Assembly (NCBI GenBank): GCA_024689005.1
Contig: JAILDU010000033.1
Span: forward strand, 1-39,402
From: Paludibacteraceae bacterium
Lineage (GTDB): Bacteria; Bacteroidota; Bacteroidia; Bacteroidales; Paludibacteraceae
Length of the DNA: 39,402 bases
Direction: 5' to 3'
Under the pieces are notes generated by a model. The model searched no databases. It was not told where the DNA came from and saw only the letters and a program-made list of their open reading frames with translations. The number at the start of each line of letters is the position of its first letter. Within the stretch, counting starts at the first letter, position 1. The position numbers and the translations under genes are program-made. Below are positions 18,200-39,402 of this stretch, piece after piece.

Positions 18200-19300
18200 T
18201 TACAATTCACTTTCTTTGAGACGCTCTGCGTTTTCTGCCACTTGCAGTGCATCAATGACGCCTTGAATATCACCATCCATGAACGCCGCGAGGTTATACA
18301 CTGTGTATCCGATACGGTGGTCGGTTATACGTCCTTGCGGGTAGTTATAGGTACGAATCTTAGCACTACGGTCACCTGTCGAAACCATCGTCTTGCGACG
18401 TGCAGCGATATCGTCTATATATTTCTGATGTTCTTTATCATATATTTGCGTGCGCAGGCGCGATAGCGCACGTTCTTTGTTCTTAGGCTGGTCACGCGTC
18501 TCTGTACACTCTATCAATATCTCTTGCACTTCGCCTGTGTTGGGGTTCTTCCACATGTATCTCAAGCGCACACCGGACTCCACTTTGTTGACGTTCTGTC
18601 CGCCGGCTCCTCCGGAACGGAAGGTCTCCCACTTGATATCGCCTTCGTTGATATGTACCTCAAACTCGTCTGCCTCTGGCAATACTGCCACCGTAGCGGC
18701 TGAAGTATGCACGCGTCCTTGAGTTTCGGTCACAGGCACACGTTGTACGCGGTGAACGCCACTCTCATATTTCAGTGTTCCATAGACATTCTCTCCGGTT
18801 ACATTGAAGATGATTTCCTTATAGCCGCCTGCAGCTCCTTCGGTAAACGATGAAACAGTATATTTGAAACCGTGCAACTCGAAATATTTGGTGTACATTC
18901 GGAATAGATCGCCGGCAAAGATAGCCGCTTCATCGCCGCCCGTTCCACCGCGTATTTCCATCACAACGTTCTTGCCATCTTCGGGATCTTGCGGCAGGAG
19001 TTGCAGTTTCAGCTCTTCTTCCAGTTTGGGTACTTGTGGTTCCAATTCATCTATCTCGGCACGTGCCATCTCTTTCATTTCCGGATCAGACTCATTGAAA
19101 AACAGGTCTTTGGCGTCCTGCAGATCCGTAACGGCTTTTTTGTAGCGGTGTGCCACTTCCAATACACGCTCCAAGTCGTGGTAGTCGCGATTGAGACGCA
19201 CATAACGCGCCTGATCAGCTATCACGGCCGGGTCGGTTATCAATAGGCTCACTTCGTGAAACTTTGCCTCCAATCCATCTATTTTATCTAATATATCCAT
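18200..19300 (-). CDS. prfA: peptide chain release factor 1
   Basis: FRSGGAGGQNVNKVESGVRLRY (GGQ), GGTGGDEAAIFAGDLFRMY, MVSTGDRSAKIRTYNYPQGRITDHRIGYT. Confidence 0.95.
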   Translation of the reverse strand: MDILDKIDGLEAKFHEVSLLITDPAVIADQARYVRLNRDYHDLERVLEVAHRYKKAVTDLQDAKDLFFNESDPEMKEMARAEIDELEPQVPKLEEELKLQLLPQDPEDGKNVVMEIRGGTGGDEAAIFAGDLFRMYTKYFELHGFKYTVSSFTEGAAGGYKEIIFNVTGENVYGTLKYESGVHRVQRVPVTETQGRVHTSAATVAVLPEADEFEVHINEGDIKWETFRSGGAGGQNVNKVESGVRLRYMWKNPNTGEVQEILIECTETRDQPKNKERALSRLRTQIYDKEHQKYIDDIAARRKTMVSTGDRSAKIRTYNYPQGRITDHRIGYTVYNLAAFMDGDIQGVIDALQVAENAERLKESEL

Positions 19301-19315
19301 CTGAGTATCTTGCCT

Positions 19316-19780
19316 TTATGCACCAAATTTGCATGCTTGCAACATGTTCTGCATCATCGAGATTATGGAGGAAGGTCCATCGCCACCCGGCACAGGAGTG
19401 AAAAACTCCGCTTTCGGCTCTTCGGCTCCGACATCCTTGCGATAATCTATTGCGCTCAACAAGTGCTGTTTGTTTAGGTGGTGAGGCAACGGGAACTGAA
19501 AAATGAATCCGTCAAATCTGGAGTCATTGTTGAGCCGTTGAATCTCTGTCTGCAAAGTTTGTTCGGTGATATATTCCGAGTAAGATATTTGTTCCGCTTC
19601 TATTCCCACTTCCTCGCAAGCCTTTATTTTTCTTGCCACAAAGCCATCCAACAGCGGATAATTACCCACCGTTACAATCGCCAAATGCGGAGCACGCATA
19701 CCTTTTTCTTTCAGTATGGCAATCTCGTTGCGCAACTCTGCACTCTTCTCTGCTGCATCTTTTTCTCCGTTTATATACAT
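19316..19780 (-). CDS. internally deleted FolD-like protein (N-terminal domain plus C-terminal PGGxGP helix, no Rossmann domain)
   Basis: PHLAIVTVGNYP, FVARKIKACEEVGI, DGFIFQFPLPHHLNKQHLLSAIDYRKDV, then directly EPKAEFFTPVPGGDGPSSIISMMQNML; 154 aa, about half a usual FolD. Confidence 0.85.
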   Translation of the reverse strand: MYINGEKDAAEKSAELRNEIAILKEKGMRAPHLAIVTVGNYPLLDGFVARKIKACEEVGIEAEQISYSEYITEQTLQTEIQRLNNDSRFDGFIFQFPLPHHLNKQHLLSAIDYRKDVGAEEPKAEFFTPVPGGDGPSSIISMMQNMLQACKFGA

Positions 19781-19783
19781 TTC

Positions 19784-21082
19784 TTATCGTCTCTTCATTT
19801 GTTGTACTTTCTTCATCATCTTGCTGGTCTGTTCAAATTGCTTAATAAAGCGGTTCAGCTCTACGATGCTCACACCGGAACCCTTGGCAATACGATCTTT
19901 GCGGCTTCCGTTCAGCAACGCAGGATTTGAACGCTCTGCCGGTGTCATCGAGTTGATCATTGCCTCTATGGGTTTGAATGCGTCATCGCTTACCTCCACG
20001 CCCTTCAGTGCTTTGTCCATGCCCGGTATCATACCCATCAGGTCCTTCATCGAACCCATCTTCTTAATCTGATTGAGTTGGGCAATAAAGTCGTTGAAAT
20101 CGAATTGATTCTTGGCTATCTTCTTACTGATGCGGCGTGCTTCCTCCTCGTCATATTGCTCTTGCGCGCGCTCCACGAGGCTGACCACGTCACCCATTCC
20201 CAATATACGATCTGCCATTCGGGCCGGATGGAACACATCCAGTGCCTCCATCTTCTCGCCTGTTCCGATAAACTTGATAGGTTTGTTTACCACTGAGCGG
20301 ATGGACAATGCGGCACCGCCGCGCGCATCACCGTCCAATTTTGTCAGTACTACACCGTCGAAATCAATGCGGTCGTTAAACTCCTTAGCGGTATTGACTG
20401 CATCTTGTCCGGTCATCGCATCCACCACAAAGAGTGTCTCGCTCGGAGTGATTGCCTGCTTGATAGCTGCTATCTCTTGCATCATCTGCTCATCAACAGC
20501 CAAACGACCTGCTGTATCCACAATCACCACGTCATAACCGAATTTCTTCGCCTCGGTGATAGCCTCTTGGGCTTTCTTCACCGGGTTGCTTTCGCCCTCG
20601 CCCAGATAAACTTTTGCATTGATCTGCTCGCCCAGTACACGCAATTGTTCGATGGCTGCAGGACGATACACGTCGCAAGCCACCAACATAACTTTCTTAT
20701 TCTTCTTGGTTTGCAGCCAGTTGGCCAATTTGCTGGCAAAGGTGGTCTTACCTGAACCTTGCAGACCGGACATCAATATGACGGCAGGACTACCTTTCAG
20801 GTTCAACTCTTGTGCCTCACCGCCCATCAACGCAGCCAATTCATCGTGAGTAATCTTCACCATCAATTGACCCGGACGAACACTCGTCATCACGTTCTGA
20901 CCCAGTGCTTTTTCCTTCACTTGGTCGGTAAACTGCTTCGCCGTCTTGTAGTTAACATCGGCCTCCAACAGTGCTTTACGGATGTCTTTGACGGTCTCCG
21001 CAATATTGATTTCGGTAATTCGCCCTTCACCCTTCAGGATCTTAAACGAGCGCTCCAGTCTTTCTGATAAATTGTCAAACAT
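19784..21082 (-). CDS. ffh: signal recognition particle protein Ffh
   Basis: LQGSGKTTFASKLA, DVYRPAAIEQL, VDTAGRLAVDEQMM, TKLDGDARGGAALSI, M-domain KKMGSMKDLMGMIPGM. Confidence 0.98.
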   Translation of the reverse strand: MFDNLSERLERSFKILKGEGRITEINIAETVKDIRKALLEADVNYKTAKQFTDQVKEKALGQNVMTSVRPGQLMVKITHDELAALMGGEAQELNLKGSPAVILMSGLQGSGKTTFASKLANWLQTKKNKKVMLVACDVYRPAAIEQLRVLGEQINAKVYLGEGESNPVKKAQEAITEAKKFGYDVVIVDTAGRLAVDEQMMQEIAAIKQAITPSETLFVVDAMTGQDAVNTAKEFNDRIDFDGVVLTKLDGDARGGAALSIRSVVNKPIKFIGTGEKMEALDVFHPARMADRILGMGDVVSLVERAQEQYDEEEARRISKKIAKNQFDFNDFIAQLNQIKKMGSMKDLMGMIPGMDKALKGVEVSDDAFKPIEAMINSMTPAERSNPALLNGSRKDRIAKGSGVSIVELNRFIKQFEQTSKMMKKVQQMKRR

Positions 21083-31878: not shown

Positions 31879-33312
31879 TTATTCCAATGTATGCGATGAA
31901 CTGCAGTCAAAGCAGTGTGTACAAATCTGATTGCGCGGCAGACCGATAGCACGGACGAGAGTCTCCAGTTTGGTGAAGCGCAATGATTGCAAGCCAAATT
32001 TCTTAGCTAGCACATCAATCATTGCCTTGTACTCCGGCGAATCGGTCACCGAATAAGCGCGAACGCGTTCCTCGTTCAGTGCGGCCACCTCGCCCTCGAG
32101 TTCAGCAATGACGCGGCGTGTGATGAGTTCCATCACCGATTTGGACTCCGAGAAATTGATGAACGGGCAGCCGTACAATAGTGGAGGACAAGCCACGCGC
32201 ATATGTATCTCTTTAGCGCCGCCGTCGAGCAAACAATGTGTGTTATCGCGTAGTTGCGTACCGCGGACGATAGAGTCATCGCACAGCAGCACACGGCGGT
32301 CGCGCAGAATAGAGTTGTTCTGTATCAGTTTCATCTTGGCCACCAGGTTGCGCATATTCTGATTGGCAGGCATGAACGAACGAGGCCATGTGGGCGTATA
32401 TTTGGATATTGCGCGGCGATAAGGCACGTTATGACCCTCGGCGTAACCGATAGCCATGCCGATACCCGAATCGGGCACTCCGCAACAGCAATCCACCTGC
32501 GTATCGTCCTCTTTGCCCATGGCATAACCGATATAGTTGCGAACATCTTCGGTATTGCGACCCTCGTAGGTAGAGGTCGGAAAGCCATAGTAAACCCAGA
32601 GGAAAGAGCATATCTGCATGTGGTCTGGCAGCGGTTGGGCCAACTGCTCAATGCGGTCCGGGTGAAGACACACTATCTCGCCGGGACCCAAGTCGCGTAC
32701 GGTAGTAAAGCCCAGATTAATGAACGAAGACGATTCGCTGGCAGCGCAATAGGTATTGTCCTTATGCCCGATGATGATTGGTGTACGTCCCCACGCATCA
32801 CGTGCACAGACAATTCCGTCCTCGGTAAGCAACAGCAGCGACAATGAGCCTTTGATCTTCTGTTGCGCATAGCGGATTCCCTCTGCCAGCGACTGCTTCT
32901 GGATAATCATCAAGCCAACCAATTCGGTCGGATTGACCTTGCCGGAAGAGAACTCCGAGAGGTGCATATTGTGCTCCAGTGCCTCGTTTGCTAGTTCATC
33001 CAGATTGGCTATTTTACCCACCGTAGAGAGAGCAAACCGTCCGAGATGCGAGTTGAAGAGCAGCGGTTGAGCGTCTGTATCGGAAATGATACCTATGCCC
33101 GCGTTGCCCAAGAACTTAGGCAGTTCGTCCTCCATCTTACTGCGGAACGAGGCCTGCGAGATTGAGTGAATGACGCGACGAAAATTGCCTGTCTCGGGGT
33201 CATAAGTGGCTATACCTCCGCGCCGTGTACCCAGATGCGAATGGTAGTCTGTGCCGTAGAAGACATCCGTGATACAAGGACTTGTACTGATTGAGCCGAA
33301 AAAGCCTGCCAT
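31879..33312 (-). CDS. amidophosphoribosyltransferase-like protein lacking the catalytic N-terminal Cys
   Basis: PRTase motif LLCDDSIVRGTQLRD, VPDSGIGMAIGYAEG; N-terminus MAGFFGS instead of MCG; in-frame TAA two codons upstream of the ATG. Confidence 0.85.
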   Translation of the reverse strand: MAGFFGSISTSPCITDVFYGTDYHSHLGTRRGGIATYDPETGNFRRVIHSISQASFRSKMEDELPKFLGNAGIGIISDTDAQPLLFNSHLGRFALSTVGKIANLDELANEALEHNMHLSEFSSGKVNPTELVGLMIIQKQSLAEGIRYAQQKIKGSLSLLLLTEDGIVCARDAWGRTPIIIGHKDNTYCAASESSSFINLGFTTVRDLGPGEIVCLHPDRIEQLAQPLPDHMQICSFLWVYYGFPTSTYEGRNTEDVRNYIGYAMGKEDDTQVDCCCGVPDSGIGMAIGYAEGHNVPYRRAISKYTPTWPRSFMPANQNMRNLVAKMKLIQNNSILRDRRVLLCDDSIVRGTQLRDNTHCLLDGGAKEIHMRVACPPLLYGCPFINFSESKSVMELITRRVIAELEGEVAALNEERVRAYSVTDSPEYKAMIDVLAKKFGLQSLRFTKLETLVRAIGLPRNQICTHCFDCSSSHTLE

Positions 33313-33315
33313 AGA

Positions 33316-34263
33316 TTAGAGAGTTTTGAGATACGAAGTGATATTGTTCTCAATACGTGAAGCCAAGTTGGCTGTGTCCTCTTGAACGAACTTATCGCCG
33401 GTTATGCCCTCAAAGAGCTCTATATATCGGTCGGTAATATCCTTGACGATGGTCGGAGTCATCTCCGGCACCTGTTGTCCCTCTTTACCTTGGAAACCGT
33501 TACTCATGAGCCATTCGCGCACAAACTCTTTGGACAACTGACGTTGCGGCTCGCCTGCAGCAAAACGCTCTGCATAGCCTTCGGCGTAGAAATAACGGCT
33601 GGAGTCTGGTGTGTGCACCTCGTCCATCAACATTACCTGACCATCATACTGACCGAATTCATACTTGGTGTCAACGAGGATAAGACCATGCTGGTTGGCT
33701 ATCTTCTGTCCACGTGCAAACAACGCGAGTGCATATTGCTCTATCTGCTTGTACTCCTTCTCCGGAACCAGGCCGCGTGCCAGGATTTCCTCACGGGAGA
33801 TATCCTCATCGTGAGTTCCTATCTCTGCCTTGGTGGTAGGAGTGATGATAGGAGTCGGGAACTTCTCGTTCTCACGCATACCATCCGGCAATTTGACACC
33901 GCATATCTCGCGTACACCGGACTTATAAGCACGCCAAGCCGAACCGCACAGATAACCGCGCACAATCATCTCTACCGGATAACCCTGACAACGATAACCA
34001 ACCGACACCATCGGATCTGGAGTTGCCAGTAACCAGTTAGGGACAATGTCGCGAGTGGCATTCAAAAACTTTGCCGCAATCTGGTTGAGTATCTGTCCCT
34101 TGTAAGGAATACCTTCGGGCAGAATAACATCAAAGGCGGAAATACGGTCAGTGGCTACCATGCACAGCAGATTGTCGCCAATGAAATAGACGTCACGCAC
34201 CTTGCCATGATAGACATCGGTCTGACCGGGGAAAGAGAATTTGGTTGTTGTTAAAGCATTCAT
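33316..34263 (-). CDS. purC: phosphoribosylaminoimidazole-succinocarboxamide synthase
   Basis: [59 protein letters not shown]. Confidence 0.95.
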
Positions 34264-34290: not shown

Positions 34291-37200
34291 TTATTTATAT
34301 TCATCCCATGCCTTGATAGCCAAGCTATCCAAAGGCACATCGAGGAAGGCGTTGATGAACGCCTCTGCTAAGCGTGCGTTGGTAATCAACGGAATATTCA
34401 GATCAACTGCTGTACGGCGCATTCTGTAGTAACTGTCGTGAACCGAATCAGCCAGCGTGTCCACAGGAATACCGACAAAGAGGTCTATCTCTTTCTTGTG
34501 CATCAGGTCGGACACAATAGGTTGTTTGAGCTGACCATTCTCGTCGATATGCTCGTTTTTATAGACACGTACATTAGGCACGCCCAATCCGTTGAGGAAC
34601 TCACTGGTACCACCCGTTGCATAGATAGTGAATCCGCGCTCTACCAAACGCTTGATTGTATCCAGCATGTGCGCACGCTGTTTCGGCCCACCGATCGCGA
34701 ATAGGATATTCTTCTTAGGAATACGCATACCAACCGACAACATCGCTTTGAGCAACGCCGAGTTGGCGTCTTGTCCAAGACATCCAACCTCTCCGGTAGA
34801 TGCCATATCTACGCCCAATATCGGGTCGGCATTTTGCAATCGGTTGAAGGAGAACTGTGAAGCCTTCACTCCCACGTAGTCGAAGTCGAAGAGCGACTTG
34901 TGCGGACGTTCAACCGGCAAGCCCAACATGATACGGGTTGCAATATCGATGAGGTTGATCTTGAGCACCTTGCTGACGAATGGGAACGAACGCGATGCAC
35001 GGAGGTTACATTCTATCACCTTAATCTCATTCTCGCGAGCCAAATACTGGATGTTGAACGGACCGGAGATATTCAGTTCGCGTGCTATCTGGCCGGATAT
35101 ACGCTTGATACGACGCACGGTCTCGATATAGAGTTTTTGAGCAGGGAACATGATAGTGGCGTCTCCCGAGTGAACACCTGCAAACTCAACGTGCTCTGAG
35201 ATTGCGTAAGCAATGATCTCGCCATTGCGAGCCACGGCATCCATTTCCACCTCCTTGGTATTGGTCATGAACTTGGAGATAACCACCGGATGTTCTTTGG
35301 ACACATTGGCTGCTAACTCCAGGAACTTATGTAGTTGTTCTTCGTTGGAGCACACGTTCATGGCGGCACCGGACAGCACGTACGAAGGACGTACCAAAAC
35401 CGGATAGCCCACACGCCCGACAAATTTCTCTACATCCTCCATGGATGTCAGTGCACTCCACTCCGGTTGATCTACACCGATACGATCCAGCATAGCGGAG
35501 AACTTATCGCGGTCTTCGGCATTATCTATCGACTTGGCCGTTGTACCTAAGATGGGCACACGTTGTGCATCGAGTTTCATAGCCAGGTTGTTCGGTATCT
35601 GGCCACCGGTGGAGACAATCACACCATGTGGATTCTCCAGTTCGATGATATCCATCACACGTTCGAATGTCAGTTCGTCGAAATAGAGGCGGTCGCACAT
35701 ATCATAGTCGGTGGACACGGTCTCCGGGTTATAGTTAATCATGACCGAACGGAATCCATTGTTGCGAATGGTATGCAGCGCTTGCACGCCACACCAGTCG
35801 AACTCAACTGACGAACCGATACGATAGGCACCCGAACCGAGTACGACAATAGACTTTTGGTCTCCCAGATAGTGTACATCGTTTTTAATGCCACTATAGG
35901 TCAGATACAGATAATTGGTCTGTGCAGGGAATTCACCCGCCAGAGTATCTATCTGTTTGACAACAGGCAGGATGCCTAATTGCTTACGATAAGCACGCAT
36001 CTTCAACACGGCTTGATCCATAGTCATCTCTTTGCCCAATCCCAAGGCACGTGCTATCTGGAAGTCAGAGAAACCAAGTTGCTTTGCGCGCAGAAGGAGA
36101 TGCTTATCTAACTTCTGCAGGTCGCCCAGATGCTTGAGTTCGGTATCTATTTGGATAATATGCTCAAGACGTTGGAGGAACCAATTGTCTATCTTGGTCA
36201 GTTCGTGAATGCGCTCTACGCTATAGCCCTCGTACATCGCTTGTGCAATAGCGAATATACGTTTGTCGGTTGGTGCTTTGAGTGCTGCGTCCAAATCATC
36301 TACATGCAGCTCTTTATTCTCTGTGAAGCCGTGCATGCCTTGACCAATCATTCGCAAGCCCTTCTGAATAGCATCTTCGAACGTACGTCCGATAGCCATC
36401 ACCTCGCCTACAGACTTCATCGAACTGCCTAACTCGCGATTGACGCCACGGAACTTACCTAAGTCCCAACGAGGAATCTTACATACTACATAGTCTAACG
36501 CAGGTTCGAAGAAAGCAGAGGTTGACTTGGTAACCGAGTTGGACAACTCAAACAAGCCGTAACCCATACCCAATTTTGCAGCTACAAAAGCTAACGGATA
36601 CCCTGTCGCCTTGGATGCTAAAGCTGACGAGCGGCTCAAACGCGCATTCACTTCAATGACGCGATAGTCCTCAGACTCGGGATCGAAAGCGTACTGCACG
36701 TTGCACTCACCTACTATACCCAAATGGCGGATGATACGGATAGCCAATGCACGCAGTTTGTGATATTCGGAGTTAGTCAATGTCTGAGAAGGAGCAATCA
36801 CGATGGACTCACCTGTATGGATACCAAGCGGGTCGAAGTTTTCCATGTTGCAGACCGTGATACAATTGTCATATCGGTCACGCACTACTTCGTATTCAAT
36901 CTCTTTCCATCCCTTTAGCGACTTCTCTACCAGCACTTGAGGAGAGAAAGAGAATGCCTTCTCCACCATGGTATTGAGTTCGTCTTCGTTGTCGCAGAAA
37001 CCAGAACCGAGTCCTCCCAAAGCGTACGCAGCGCGGATAATAACCGGATAGCCCAATTCGCTAGCCGCACGACGCGCATCCTCGATAGTCTCGCATGCCT
37101 CCGACTTAATCGTCTTGACATTGATTTGGTCCAACTGACGCACGAAGAGTTCACGATCTTCAGTATTAATGATAGTCTCGACCGGAGTACCCAATACCTG

Positions 37201-37536
37201 TACATTGTACTTCTCCAATACACCCGAGCGATAGAGAGCCACACCGCAGTTGAGAGCAGTCTGACCGCCGAACGAGAGCAGAATACCGTCCGGACGCTCT
37301 TTCTCGATCAGTCGCTCGACGAAATAAGGAGTGACCGGCAGGAAATAGATGTGATCAGCCACACCCTCCGAAGTCTGAACCGTTGCGATGTTAGGATTGA
37401 TCAACACGGTCTCCACTCCCTCTTCGCGCAGAGCTTTGAGTGCTTGTGAACCCGAATAATCGAACTCGCCGGCCTCACCGATCTTGAGAGCGCCTGAGCC
37501 GAGAACTAATACTTTGTGAATATTTTCTAATTTCAT
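34291..37536 (-). CDS. carB: carbamoyl phosphate synthase large subunit
   Basis: 1081 aa, duplicated ATP-grasp halves (KVLVLGSGALKIGEAGEFDYSGSQA and SIVVLGSGAYRIGSSVEFDWCGVQA), C-terminal MGS-like domain. Confidence 0.98.
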   Translation of the reverse strand: MKLENIHKVLVLGSGALKIGEAGEFDYSGSQALKALREEGVETVLINPNIATVQTSEGVADHIYFLPVTPYFVERLIEKERPDGILLSFGGQTALNCGVALYRSGVLEKYNVQVLGTPVETIINTEDRELFVRQLDQINVKTIKSEACETIEDARRAASELGYPVIIRAAYALGGLGSGFCDNEDELNTMVEKAFSFSPQVLVEKSLKGWKEIEYEVVRDRYDNCITVCNMENFDPLGIHTGESIVIAPSQTLTNSEYHKLRALAIRIIRHLGIVGECNVQYAFDPESEDYRVIEVNARLSRSSALASKATGYPLAFVAAKLGMGYGLFELSNSVTKSTSAFFEPALDYVVCKIPRWDLGKFRGVNRELGSSMKSVGEVMAIGRTFEDAIQKGLRMIGQGMHGFTENKELHVDDLDAALKAPTDKRIFAIAQAMYEGYSVERIHELTKIDNWFLQRLEHIIQIDTELKHLGDLQKLDKHLLLRAKQLGFSDFQIARALGLGKEMTMDQAVLKMRAYRKQLGILPVVKQIDTLAGEFPAQTNYLYLTYSGIKNDVHYLGDQKSIVVLGSGAYRIGSSVEFDWCGVQALHTIRNNGFRSVMINYNPETVSTDYDMCDRLYFDELTFERVMDIIELENPHGVIVSTGGQIPNNLAMKLDAQRVPILGTTAKSIDNAEDRDKFSAMLDRIGVDQPEWSALTSMEDVEKFVGRVGYPVLVRPSYVLSGAAMNVCSNEEQLHKFLELAANVSKEHPVVISKFMTNTKEVEMDAVARNGEIIAYAISEHVEFAGVHSGDATIMFPAQKLYIETVRRIKRISGQIARELNISGPFNIQYLARENEIKVIECNLRASRSFPFVSKVLKINLIDIATRIMLGLPVERPHKSLFDFDYVGVKASQFSFNRLQNADPILGVDMASTGEVGCLGQDANSALLKAMLSVGMRIPKKNILFAIGGPKQRAHMLDTIKRLVERGFTIYATGGTSEFLNGLGVPNVRVYKNEHIDENGQLKQPIVSDLMHKKEIDLFVGIPVDTLADSVHDSYYRMRRTAVDLNIPLITNARLAEAFINAFLDVPLDSLAIKAWDEYK

Positions 37537-37560: not shown

Positions 37561-38628
37561 TTAGAGAAGTTTGACGAAATCGTCGAACAGGAACTCCGTA
37601 TCAACCGGTCCTGAGCATGCCTCCGGATGGAACTGCGCAGAGAACCACGGTTCCGATATATGGCGTATACCTTCGTTGGAACCATCGTTCATATTGACGA
37701 ACAGCGGTTCCCACTCCTTGGACAGAGTGGATGTATCTACAGCATAGCCGTGGTTCTGCGAGGTGATGAAGCAACGGTCGGTACCCACCATGCGTACCGG
37801 TTGGTTGTGCGAGCGGTGACCGTAAGGGAGTTTGTAGATAGTCGCCCCAGCGGCTTTACCCAACAATTGGTTACCCATACAAATTCCCGCAATGGGTTTA
37901 TGCTGTTTCATATAGGTCTTGATGTGATCTACCAGCACCTGACATGTATCCGGGTTACCCGGTCCGTTGGACAGGAAGAGTCCGTCTGCCTCGATGGTAT
38001 TGAAATCATAGTCCCACGGCACACGTATCACTTCCACGTCACGATTGATCAGGCAGCGAATGATATTGTGCTTGACACCGCAGTCCACCAAGATTACTTT
38101 TTTAGGCTTACCCTCGTTGTAACGAATCACTTCCTTGCACGATACTTGCGCCACAAAGTTGACATCCTCGTACTGCGATTCGGGTGCGGAAGGGCATCCC
38201 TCTATCTCAATAGAGCCCATCATCACTCCGTTCTCGCGCAGAAGCATTGTCAGCGCACGTGTATCAATACCGGTAATGCCCGGTACCTTCTCGCGCTTCA
38301 ACCACTCGGCCAAGGTTTCATGTCCGTTCCAGTGGCTGTACTCTCCGCTATATTCGCTACAGATGATAGCGCGTGCATAGATACGGTCCGACTCCATGAA
38401 GGTAGCCAGTCCGTCCGGGCGGAAAGAGAACTCCGGCACGCCGTAGTTACCCACCAACGGATAGGTCAGCGTCATCAACTGGCCCGCATAACTCGGATCA
38501 GTGAGCGACTCGGGATAACCCATCATCGCCGTATTGAAAACCACCTCTCCGCTTACCGGGACATCAGCACCGAAACTATAGCCCTCGAAGGTAGTGCCGT
38601 CACTAAACCTTAAAATTGCTTTTTTCAT
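37561..38628 (-). CDS. carA: carbamoyl phosphate synthase small subunit
   Basis: GEVVFNTAMMGYPESLTDPSYAGQ, PIAGICMGNQLLGKAAGA, AQFHPEA; ATG at 38628 overlaps the purA stop (TAATG). Confidence 0.97.
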   Translation of the reverse strand: MKKAILRFSDGTTFEGYSFGADVPVSGEVVFNTAMMGYPESLTDPSYAGQLMTLTYPLVGNYGVPEFSFRPDGLATFMESDRIYARAIICSEYSGEYSHWNGHETLAEWLKREKVPGITGIDTRALTMLLRENGVMMGSIEIEGCPSAPESQYEDVNFVAQVSCKEVIRYNEGKPKKVILVDCGVKHNIIRCLINRDVEVIRVPWDYDFNTIEADGLFLSNGPGNPDTCQVLVDHIKTYMKQHKPIAGICMGNQLLGKAAGATIYKLPYGHRSHNQPVRMVGTDRCFITSQNHGYAVDTSTLSKEWEPLFVNMNDGSNEGIRHISEPWFSAQFHPEACSGPVDTEFLFDDFVKLL

Positions 38629-39402
38629 TATCTCCATATAGTTGCTTCGCGATCCGGACCTACCGAAATAATCTTAATCGGCGTAGCCAGTTCGCGCTCC
38701 AAGAAATTGACGTAGTTAATAAATGCCTGTGGCAGATCTGCTTCTTTGGTGCAGTGGGTCAGGTCGGTCTGCCAACCCGGGAACTCCTCATATACCGGCT
38801 CCACATTCTTGTCAATAGAGAATGGGAAATCACGTGTCAACTCGCCGTTAACCTTATATGCCGTACAAGCCTTGATGACCGGGAATGTATCCAGCACGTC
38901 AGACTTCATCATCAGCAGTTGAGTTACGCCGTTGAGCATGATGGTATAACGCAGCGCTACCAGGTCAATCCATCCGCAGCGACGCTCACGGCCGGTAACT
39001 GCGCCGTACTCATGACCGATGGCACGAATCTGACTACCGGTCTCGTCAAACAATTCGGTTGGGAACGGACCGGCACCAACGCGTGTGCAATAGGCCTTGA
39101 ATATTCCGTACACCTCACCTATGCGGCTTGGCGCCAGACCCAGACCCGTACAAGCGCCCGCACAAACGGTGTTGCTGGAAGTAACAAACGGATAAGATCC
39201 GAAATCTACGTCCAACAGCGAGCCTTGCGCTCCCTCGCACAGGATAGACTTGTTGTCAGCCAAACACTTGTTGACAAAGTGCTCACTGTCGATGAAGCGG
39301 AACTGACGCAGAAAATCAATGCTCTCCATCCATTCCTTCTCCAATGCATCCAGTCCGTCCATCGAGACAGGACTGCCGCCCTTGGCGAGAGCAGACGCAT
39401 TG
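38628..39402 (-). CDS. purA: adenylosuccinate synthase, partial (N-terminus beyond the window edge)
   Basis: LCEGAQGSLLDVDFGSYPFVTSSNTVCAGACTGLG, GPFPTEL, GRERRCGWIDLVALRY; frame stays open to the edge. Confidence 0.96.
   Translation of the reverse strand, partial: NASALAKGGSPVSMDGLDALEKEWMESIDFLRQFRFIDSEHFVNKCLADNKSILCEGAQGSLLDVDFGSYPFVTSSNTVCAGACTGLGLAPSRIGEVYGIFKAYCTRVGAGPFPTELFDETGSQIRAIGHEYGAVTGRERRCGWIDLVALRYTIMLNGVTQLLMMKSDVLDTFPVIKACTAYKVNGELTRDFPFSIDKNVEPVYEEFPGWQTDLTHCTKEADLPQAFINYVNFLERELATPIKIISVGPDREATIWR

Follow-up and report, generated by a model that had tools for sequence, protein, structure and literature searches.

The window analysed here, a stretch of 39,402 nucleotides, contains between ffh and prfA a short reading frame homologous to folD, the product of which we refer to as mini-FolD. 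It belongs to a MAG (G000) of 1.96 Mb, which consists of 107 contigs and is 88.7% complete. The locus comprises the following features:

18200..19300, minus strand: prfA (peptide chain release factor 1), downstream neighbour, ~95-96% identical to its closest relatives
19316..19780, minus strand: mini-FolD ORF, a degenerate type-A folD of 154 codons, with its ATG at 19780 and its stop codon ending at 19316
19328..19420, minus strand: kept C-terminal tail with the TPVPGG motif and the final helix (residues 121-151), partial match to PF02882
19418..19432, minus strand: deletion junction, residues 117-121 (V-G-A-E-E), where KDVDG runs directly into the last part of the Rossmann domain; ~150 residues missing
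19430..19774, minus strand: kept folate-binding catalytic domain, residues 3-117 (PF00763, E=1.4e-29)
19784..21082, minus strand: ffh (SRP54), upstream neighbour, 92-94% identical to its closest relatives

The frame is free of internal stops over all 154 codons, and only 3 bases separate the ffh stop from mini-FolD and 15 bases its end from prfA. Residues 3-117 cover model positions 1-114/115 of the Pfam family PF00763. The NAD(P)-binding family PF02882 is matched by residues 121-151 at model positions 127-157 of 160 only, with 21 bits against a gathering threshold of 27. Since this match is confined to the last part of the model, the profile comparison indicates that the Rossmann core is absent. 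Judging from the E-values, a chance origin of the domain matches is excluded, and the 127 bits of mini-FolD lie far below the NCBIfam equivalog cut-off of 507. The preliminary description of an in-frame FolD homologue without its Rossmann domain between ffh and prfA was thus correct. It had put the loss at about 130 residues; the loss itself is confirmed, but in the alignment with full-length relatives of the same clade, which carry an insertion, the gap between the two kept parts amounts to ~150 residues.

Active-site residues and predicted fold

Where SETYVANK is expected, mini-FolD reads DGFVARK, so that the Tyr of the YxxxK motif is replaced (Y47F) and its Lys (K51) is kept. The Asp that binds the substrate has been lost from the position following KDV (KDVGA instead of KDVDG), Gln95 of VQLPLP is kept, and the PGGVGPMT signature has become PGGDGPSS. 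The changes pointed out beforehand (FVARK with Tyr to Phe and Lys kept, the lost Asp of KDVDG, and PGGDGP) are all present as described; in addition, PAS has changed to PLL and VQLPLP to FQFPLP. In comparison with ~30 orthologues from the genus, mini-FolD differs at 16 of 59 columns that do not vary otherwise (K6E, I12K, R13S, A43L, S44L, Y47F, N50R, L77Q, V94F, L96F, E104K, I127F, V134D, M137S, T138S, and L142M), and a novel residue occurs at 21 of 84 variable columns. It has been reported for FolD of P. aeruginosa that Lys54 acts as general acid-base, that Gln98 positions Lys54, and that the pterin is held in position by Asp121; residues important for catalysis are strictly conserved among FolD orthologues (PMC3338484). 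Mini-FolD thus possesses the Lys and the Gln but neither the Asp nor the Tyr.

The retention of the general acid-base Lys and of the Gln that positions it, with roles as in P. aeruginosa (PMC3338484), would be compatible with a residual monofunctional cyclohydrolase, i.e., hydrolysis of methenyl-THF by an enzyme that lacks the dehydrogenase half, as had been proposed. However, the counterpart of the pterin-positioning Asp121 is missing, the Tyr has become Phe, and no other enzyme that makes methenyl-THF was found in G000. PF00763 matches only once in the 1.96 Mb and 107 contigs of this 88.7%-complete assembly, so that it contains no second, full-length FolD. FchA (FTCD_C) is likewise absent from G000 and occurs in 2 of 37 same-genus genomes; Fhs is absent from all 37, G000 included. 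Because of this absence of Fhs from G000 and the 36 other genomes, it is not evident where a cyclohydrolase lacking the dehydrogenase half would obtain its substrate, and we regard such an activity as highly improbable. The same distribution of Fhs and FchA means that a purine prototroph of this genus needs a working FolD, and judging from gene content the 10-formyl-THF for purines in G000, if needed, must come from some FolD.

AlphaFold, supplied with an alignment of intact homologues, predicts a compact and confident structure (mean pLDDT 89.6, pTM 0.83), which agrees with the catalytic domain of FolD/MTHFD2 within 1.0-1.6 A over ~115 residues. Among solved structures the best sequence relative is 8wfc, and its alignment with mini-FolD falls into just the two kept parts (chain positions 9-127 and 262-292). 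According to this model the stump could fold, but foldability says nothing of function.

Divergence and selection at the folD slot

Orthologues in the same ffh-prfA slot of relatives are intact and of full length. In comparison with the closest relatives, Ffh and PrfA are 92-96% identical and the mini-FolD part only ~55%. The mean identity of mini-FolD to 28 orthologues is 0.57, as against 0.79 among those 28. Its branch in the nucleotide tree measures 1.14, whereas most others measure 0.05-0.42 and only that of G120 (0.86) is comparable. A two-ratio codon model yields an omega of 0.33 on the mini-FolD branch versus 0.08 in the background (lnL -6133.8, versus -6140.0 for one ratio), and constraint on this branch is, therefore, relaxed. 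An omega of 1 on the branch is mildly rejected (lnL -6136.6; twice the lnL difference 5.5). In a rough simulation of substitutions alone, 155 codons stayed stop-free with a chance of 4-20% at 0.1-0.2 neutral substitutions per site, which is compatible with decay yet leaves room for what may be a weak constraint on the frame.

These data also bear on the age and the reality of the deletion. The preliminary description had considered a young in-frame deletion of folD; the deletion stands, but the many private substitutions, evident from the branch length, the 16 altered invariant sites and the raised omega, indicate that the decay is not very young. That an intact folD-A was misassembled in G000, as an assembly or chimera artefact, could be imagined for a draft MAG of 107 contigs. 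However, dozens of private changes lie on both sides of the junction, catalytic residues included, the frame is kept, and the flanking ffh and prfA are normal. Since a misjoin could not create private changes, an assembly deletion as sole cause is ruled out, and for any artefact of this kind we see only a very slight chance. As to how the deletion arose, the codon sites of KDVDG and GDVDF share 9 bp (GATGTGGAT) in G183 but only 5-6 bp in most relatives, so that a repeat-mediated deletion between them, which was considered, is no more than a guess.

The same ~150-aa architecture was found in none of 178 same-genus genomes and none of 40 other Bacteroidales from other families. The short open frames encountered in this search came from G204 and G185. 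In G204, a 64%-complete MAG, a deletion spanning the QLPLP strand has put folD-A out of frame, and in G185 (L203, G185:C20) the frame of folD-A is interrupted within the Rossmann domain. The near-identical G206 has an intact copy, and the interruption in G185 is either a sequencing error or a fresh mutation.

A folate sensor or a regulatory partner had also been envisaged for mini-FolD. A neofunctionalised, stable Rossmann-less domain, selected as folate-binding sensor or regulator or as partner of the full-length FolD of the purine operon, would be in agreement with a frame that is intact despite the long branch, with a confidently predicted fold that includes the C-terminal helix, with a branch omega below 1, and with the retention of Lys51 and Gln95. 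Nevertheless, these proposals find no support: there is no second instance among the genomes searched, and the Asp that binds the pterin, the Tyr and the PGGVGPMT loop are all altered. Moreover, changes at invariant sites are about as frequent as novel residues at variable sites, unlike what retargeted constraint would produce, and broken folD-A copies in G120 (see below) and G204 point to decay. We consider a selected function of this type improbable.

Two types of folD and the purine operon

FolD genes in the 178 same-genus genomes are mainly of two types, i.e., type A in the ffh-prfA slot and type B in a purine operon of the order purL-purM-purH-purD-folD-purT-purB-purA-carA. Both types occur together in four genomes: G113, G027 and G186 possess B plus a folD-A with intact motifs, and G120 possesses B plus a folD-A that has lost the Tyr of YxxxK and reads PGGVEPMT. 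Most type-B genomes lack folD-A, which is gone wherever ffh and prfA were both captured in B genomes (G004, G002, G012, G013, G047, G034, G022, and G043). In the first five of these, and also in G038, which lacks any FolD, ffh is directly followed by prfA. Together with mini-FolD these genomes appear to form a decay series, from intact A plus B through the broken A of G120 and the stump of G000 to the empty slot. On the Ffh tree the A, B and A+B states are scattered over the genus, and the change in folD therefore happened several times.

Inserts of 440-500 bp between ffh and prfA in G034, G022 and G043 (L112, L120, and L121) have the size of mini-FolD but encode unrelated small proteins and were rejected as further instances of it. 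These genes in the former folD slot encode 140-164 aa with one membrane-like segment and share a C-terminal PVYRPP(R/K)K...EWY motif. A short tandem TTGATAG-type repeat lies between the small gene and prfA in G022 (L120).

The type of folD is linked to purine genes. All 15 checked genomes with folD beside purD/purT (G027, G034, G004, G022, G002, G043, G014, G012, G010, G046, G057, G039, G049, G040, and G053) carry purC, whereas it is absent from all 23 A-only genomes, many of which are 98-100% complete. Five genomes with FolD elsewhere (G001, G005, G007, G008, and G033) also lack purC, and the distribution of purH splits in the same way. Two incomplete drafts (G025 and G031; 84-89%) possess purC with FolD undetected. 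Further along the contig of mini-FolD the window contains:

31879..33312, minus strand: purF-like amidophosphoribosyltransferase gene of the purine operon (TIGR01134, E=6e-53, below the curated cut-off)
33316..34263, minus strand: purC, restricted to the purine-prototroph class of genomes
34291..37536, minus strand: carB
37561..38637, minus strand: carA
38628..39402, minus strand: purA, severed mid-gene by the contig end, with its frame open to the last base

On the basis of its purC, purF-like gene, carA, carB and purA, G000 is assigned to the purine-prototroph class. The relatives carry purB-purT-folD(B)-purD-purH-purM-purL beyond purA, and by comparison with G027 folD-B would be expected ~3 kb past the contig end at 39402. 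A functional replacement FolD is not in the G000 assembly, and its expected place is severed by this contig end; that the contig is cut off just before this place was not visible in the preliminary description. Our search of the assembly found none of purT, purD, purH and purL, as expected if one stretch remained unassembled.

The missing purD, purT, purH and purL could also mean that purine synthesis is being lost and that FolD function is gone entirely, mini-FolD being a relic in a genome without folD-B. FolD-less members of the genus do exist, since four genomes that are at least 90% complete (G038, G107, G143, and G056; 90-96%) have no detectable FolD. However, these four also lack purC and purH, whereas G000 keeps an intact purC and its purF, and the truncation of purA by the contig end has the appearance of an assembly break. 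We regard a complete loss of FolD as unlikely, although it retains a small but real chance of being correct.

Interpretation and comparison with known systems

In our opinion, mini-FolD is probably a folD-A that has become redundant and is decaying, and folD-B probably lies in the assembly gap. The starting point would be folD-A, located between ffh and prfA, as the ancestral gene of the Bacteroidota. As the relatives suggest, the lineage would be a purine prototroph with a second, full-length folD-B between purD and purT in its purine operon. With 10-formyl-THF supplied by folD-B, the constraint on folD-A would have been lost, and the gene would subsequently have lost its catalytic residues and its NAD(P) domain, the latter by in-frame deletion in one or more steps. 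What it encodes would be a probably inactive but still foldable stump of the catalytic domain. The frame was perhaps kept through its tight packing between two essential and probably co-translated genes, where prfA expression would be reduced if mini-FolD acquired a stop or frameshift; the simplest constraint would thus be one on the frame rather than on the product.

Several observations count against decay through redundancy. The presence of folD-B in G000 is inferred from synteny and was not seen; the nearest relative by Ffh, the 72%-complete G125, is A-only and purC-negative; and the four FolD-less genomes show that absence of FolD from G000 is possible. In view of the omega below 1 and the stop-free frame, the frame may still be under some constraint. 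The confident AlphaFold model could be counted here as well, although its alignment consisted of intact homologues. If the redundancy reading is correct, the genus would offer a clean case of enzyme replacement caught part-way. The stages would run from two intact folD genes via a copy with broken catalysis and one stripped of its domain to an empty slot, and they are tied to whether a genome has the purine operon. The genus would also serve as a warning that the sole FolD visible in a fragmented MAG can be a dead copy, and claims of folate sensing based on the mini-FolD ORF are premature.

Some genomes of the genus have FolD joined to purine enzymes. A PurD-FolD fusion in one frame of ~700 aa, with phosphoribosylamine-glycine ligase at 1-415 and a complete FolD with its catalytic motifs at ~422-702, occurs at L210 (G047), L211 (G013), L212 (G140), L213 (G137), and, with an incomplete C-terminal end, L214 (G024). 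A separate fusion, PurC-FolD, is present at L215 (G102:C61), where SAICAR synthetase and, behind it, a complete FolD (333-619) are encoded in one frame of 620 aa. Our full-text literature search yielded nothing on FolD-PurD fusions in Bacteroidetes or on purine auxotrophy in Paludibacteraceae.

Among known systems, mini-FolD resembles bifunctional FolD (PF00763 plus PF02882; PRK14185 etc.) in its catalytic domain (residues 3-117), its TPVPGG motif and its terminal helix, and it shares the slot after ffh with other Bacteroidota FolD. It differs from the bifunctional dehydrogenase/cyclohydrolase in lacking the Rossmann domain and the catalytic Tyr and Asp. The type-B FolD of the same genus (e.g., L142:5956-6801, L143, and L146) is homologous and ~31-38% identical over the shared domain but, unlike mini-FolD, is full length, has all catalytic motifs, and is encoded between purD and purT, in some cases as a fusion with PurD; it is presumed to be the active replacement. 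A further likeness is found in the amino-terminal region of vertebrate MTHFD1L, which is derived from FolD, has diverged and is no longer a dehydrogenase/cyclohydrolase (PMC11064299). In contrast to mini-FolD, however, this eukaryotic region is stably kept and forms one protein with an active formyl-THF synthetase.
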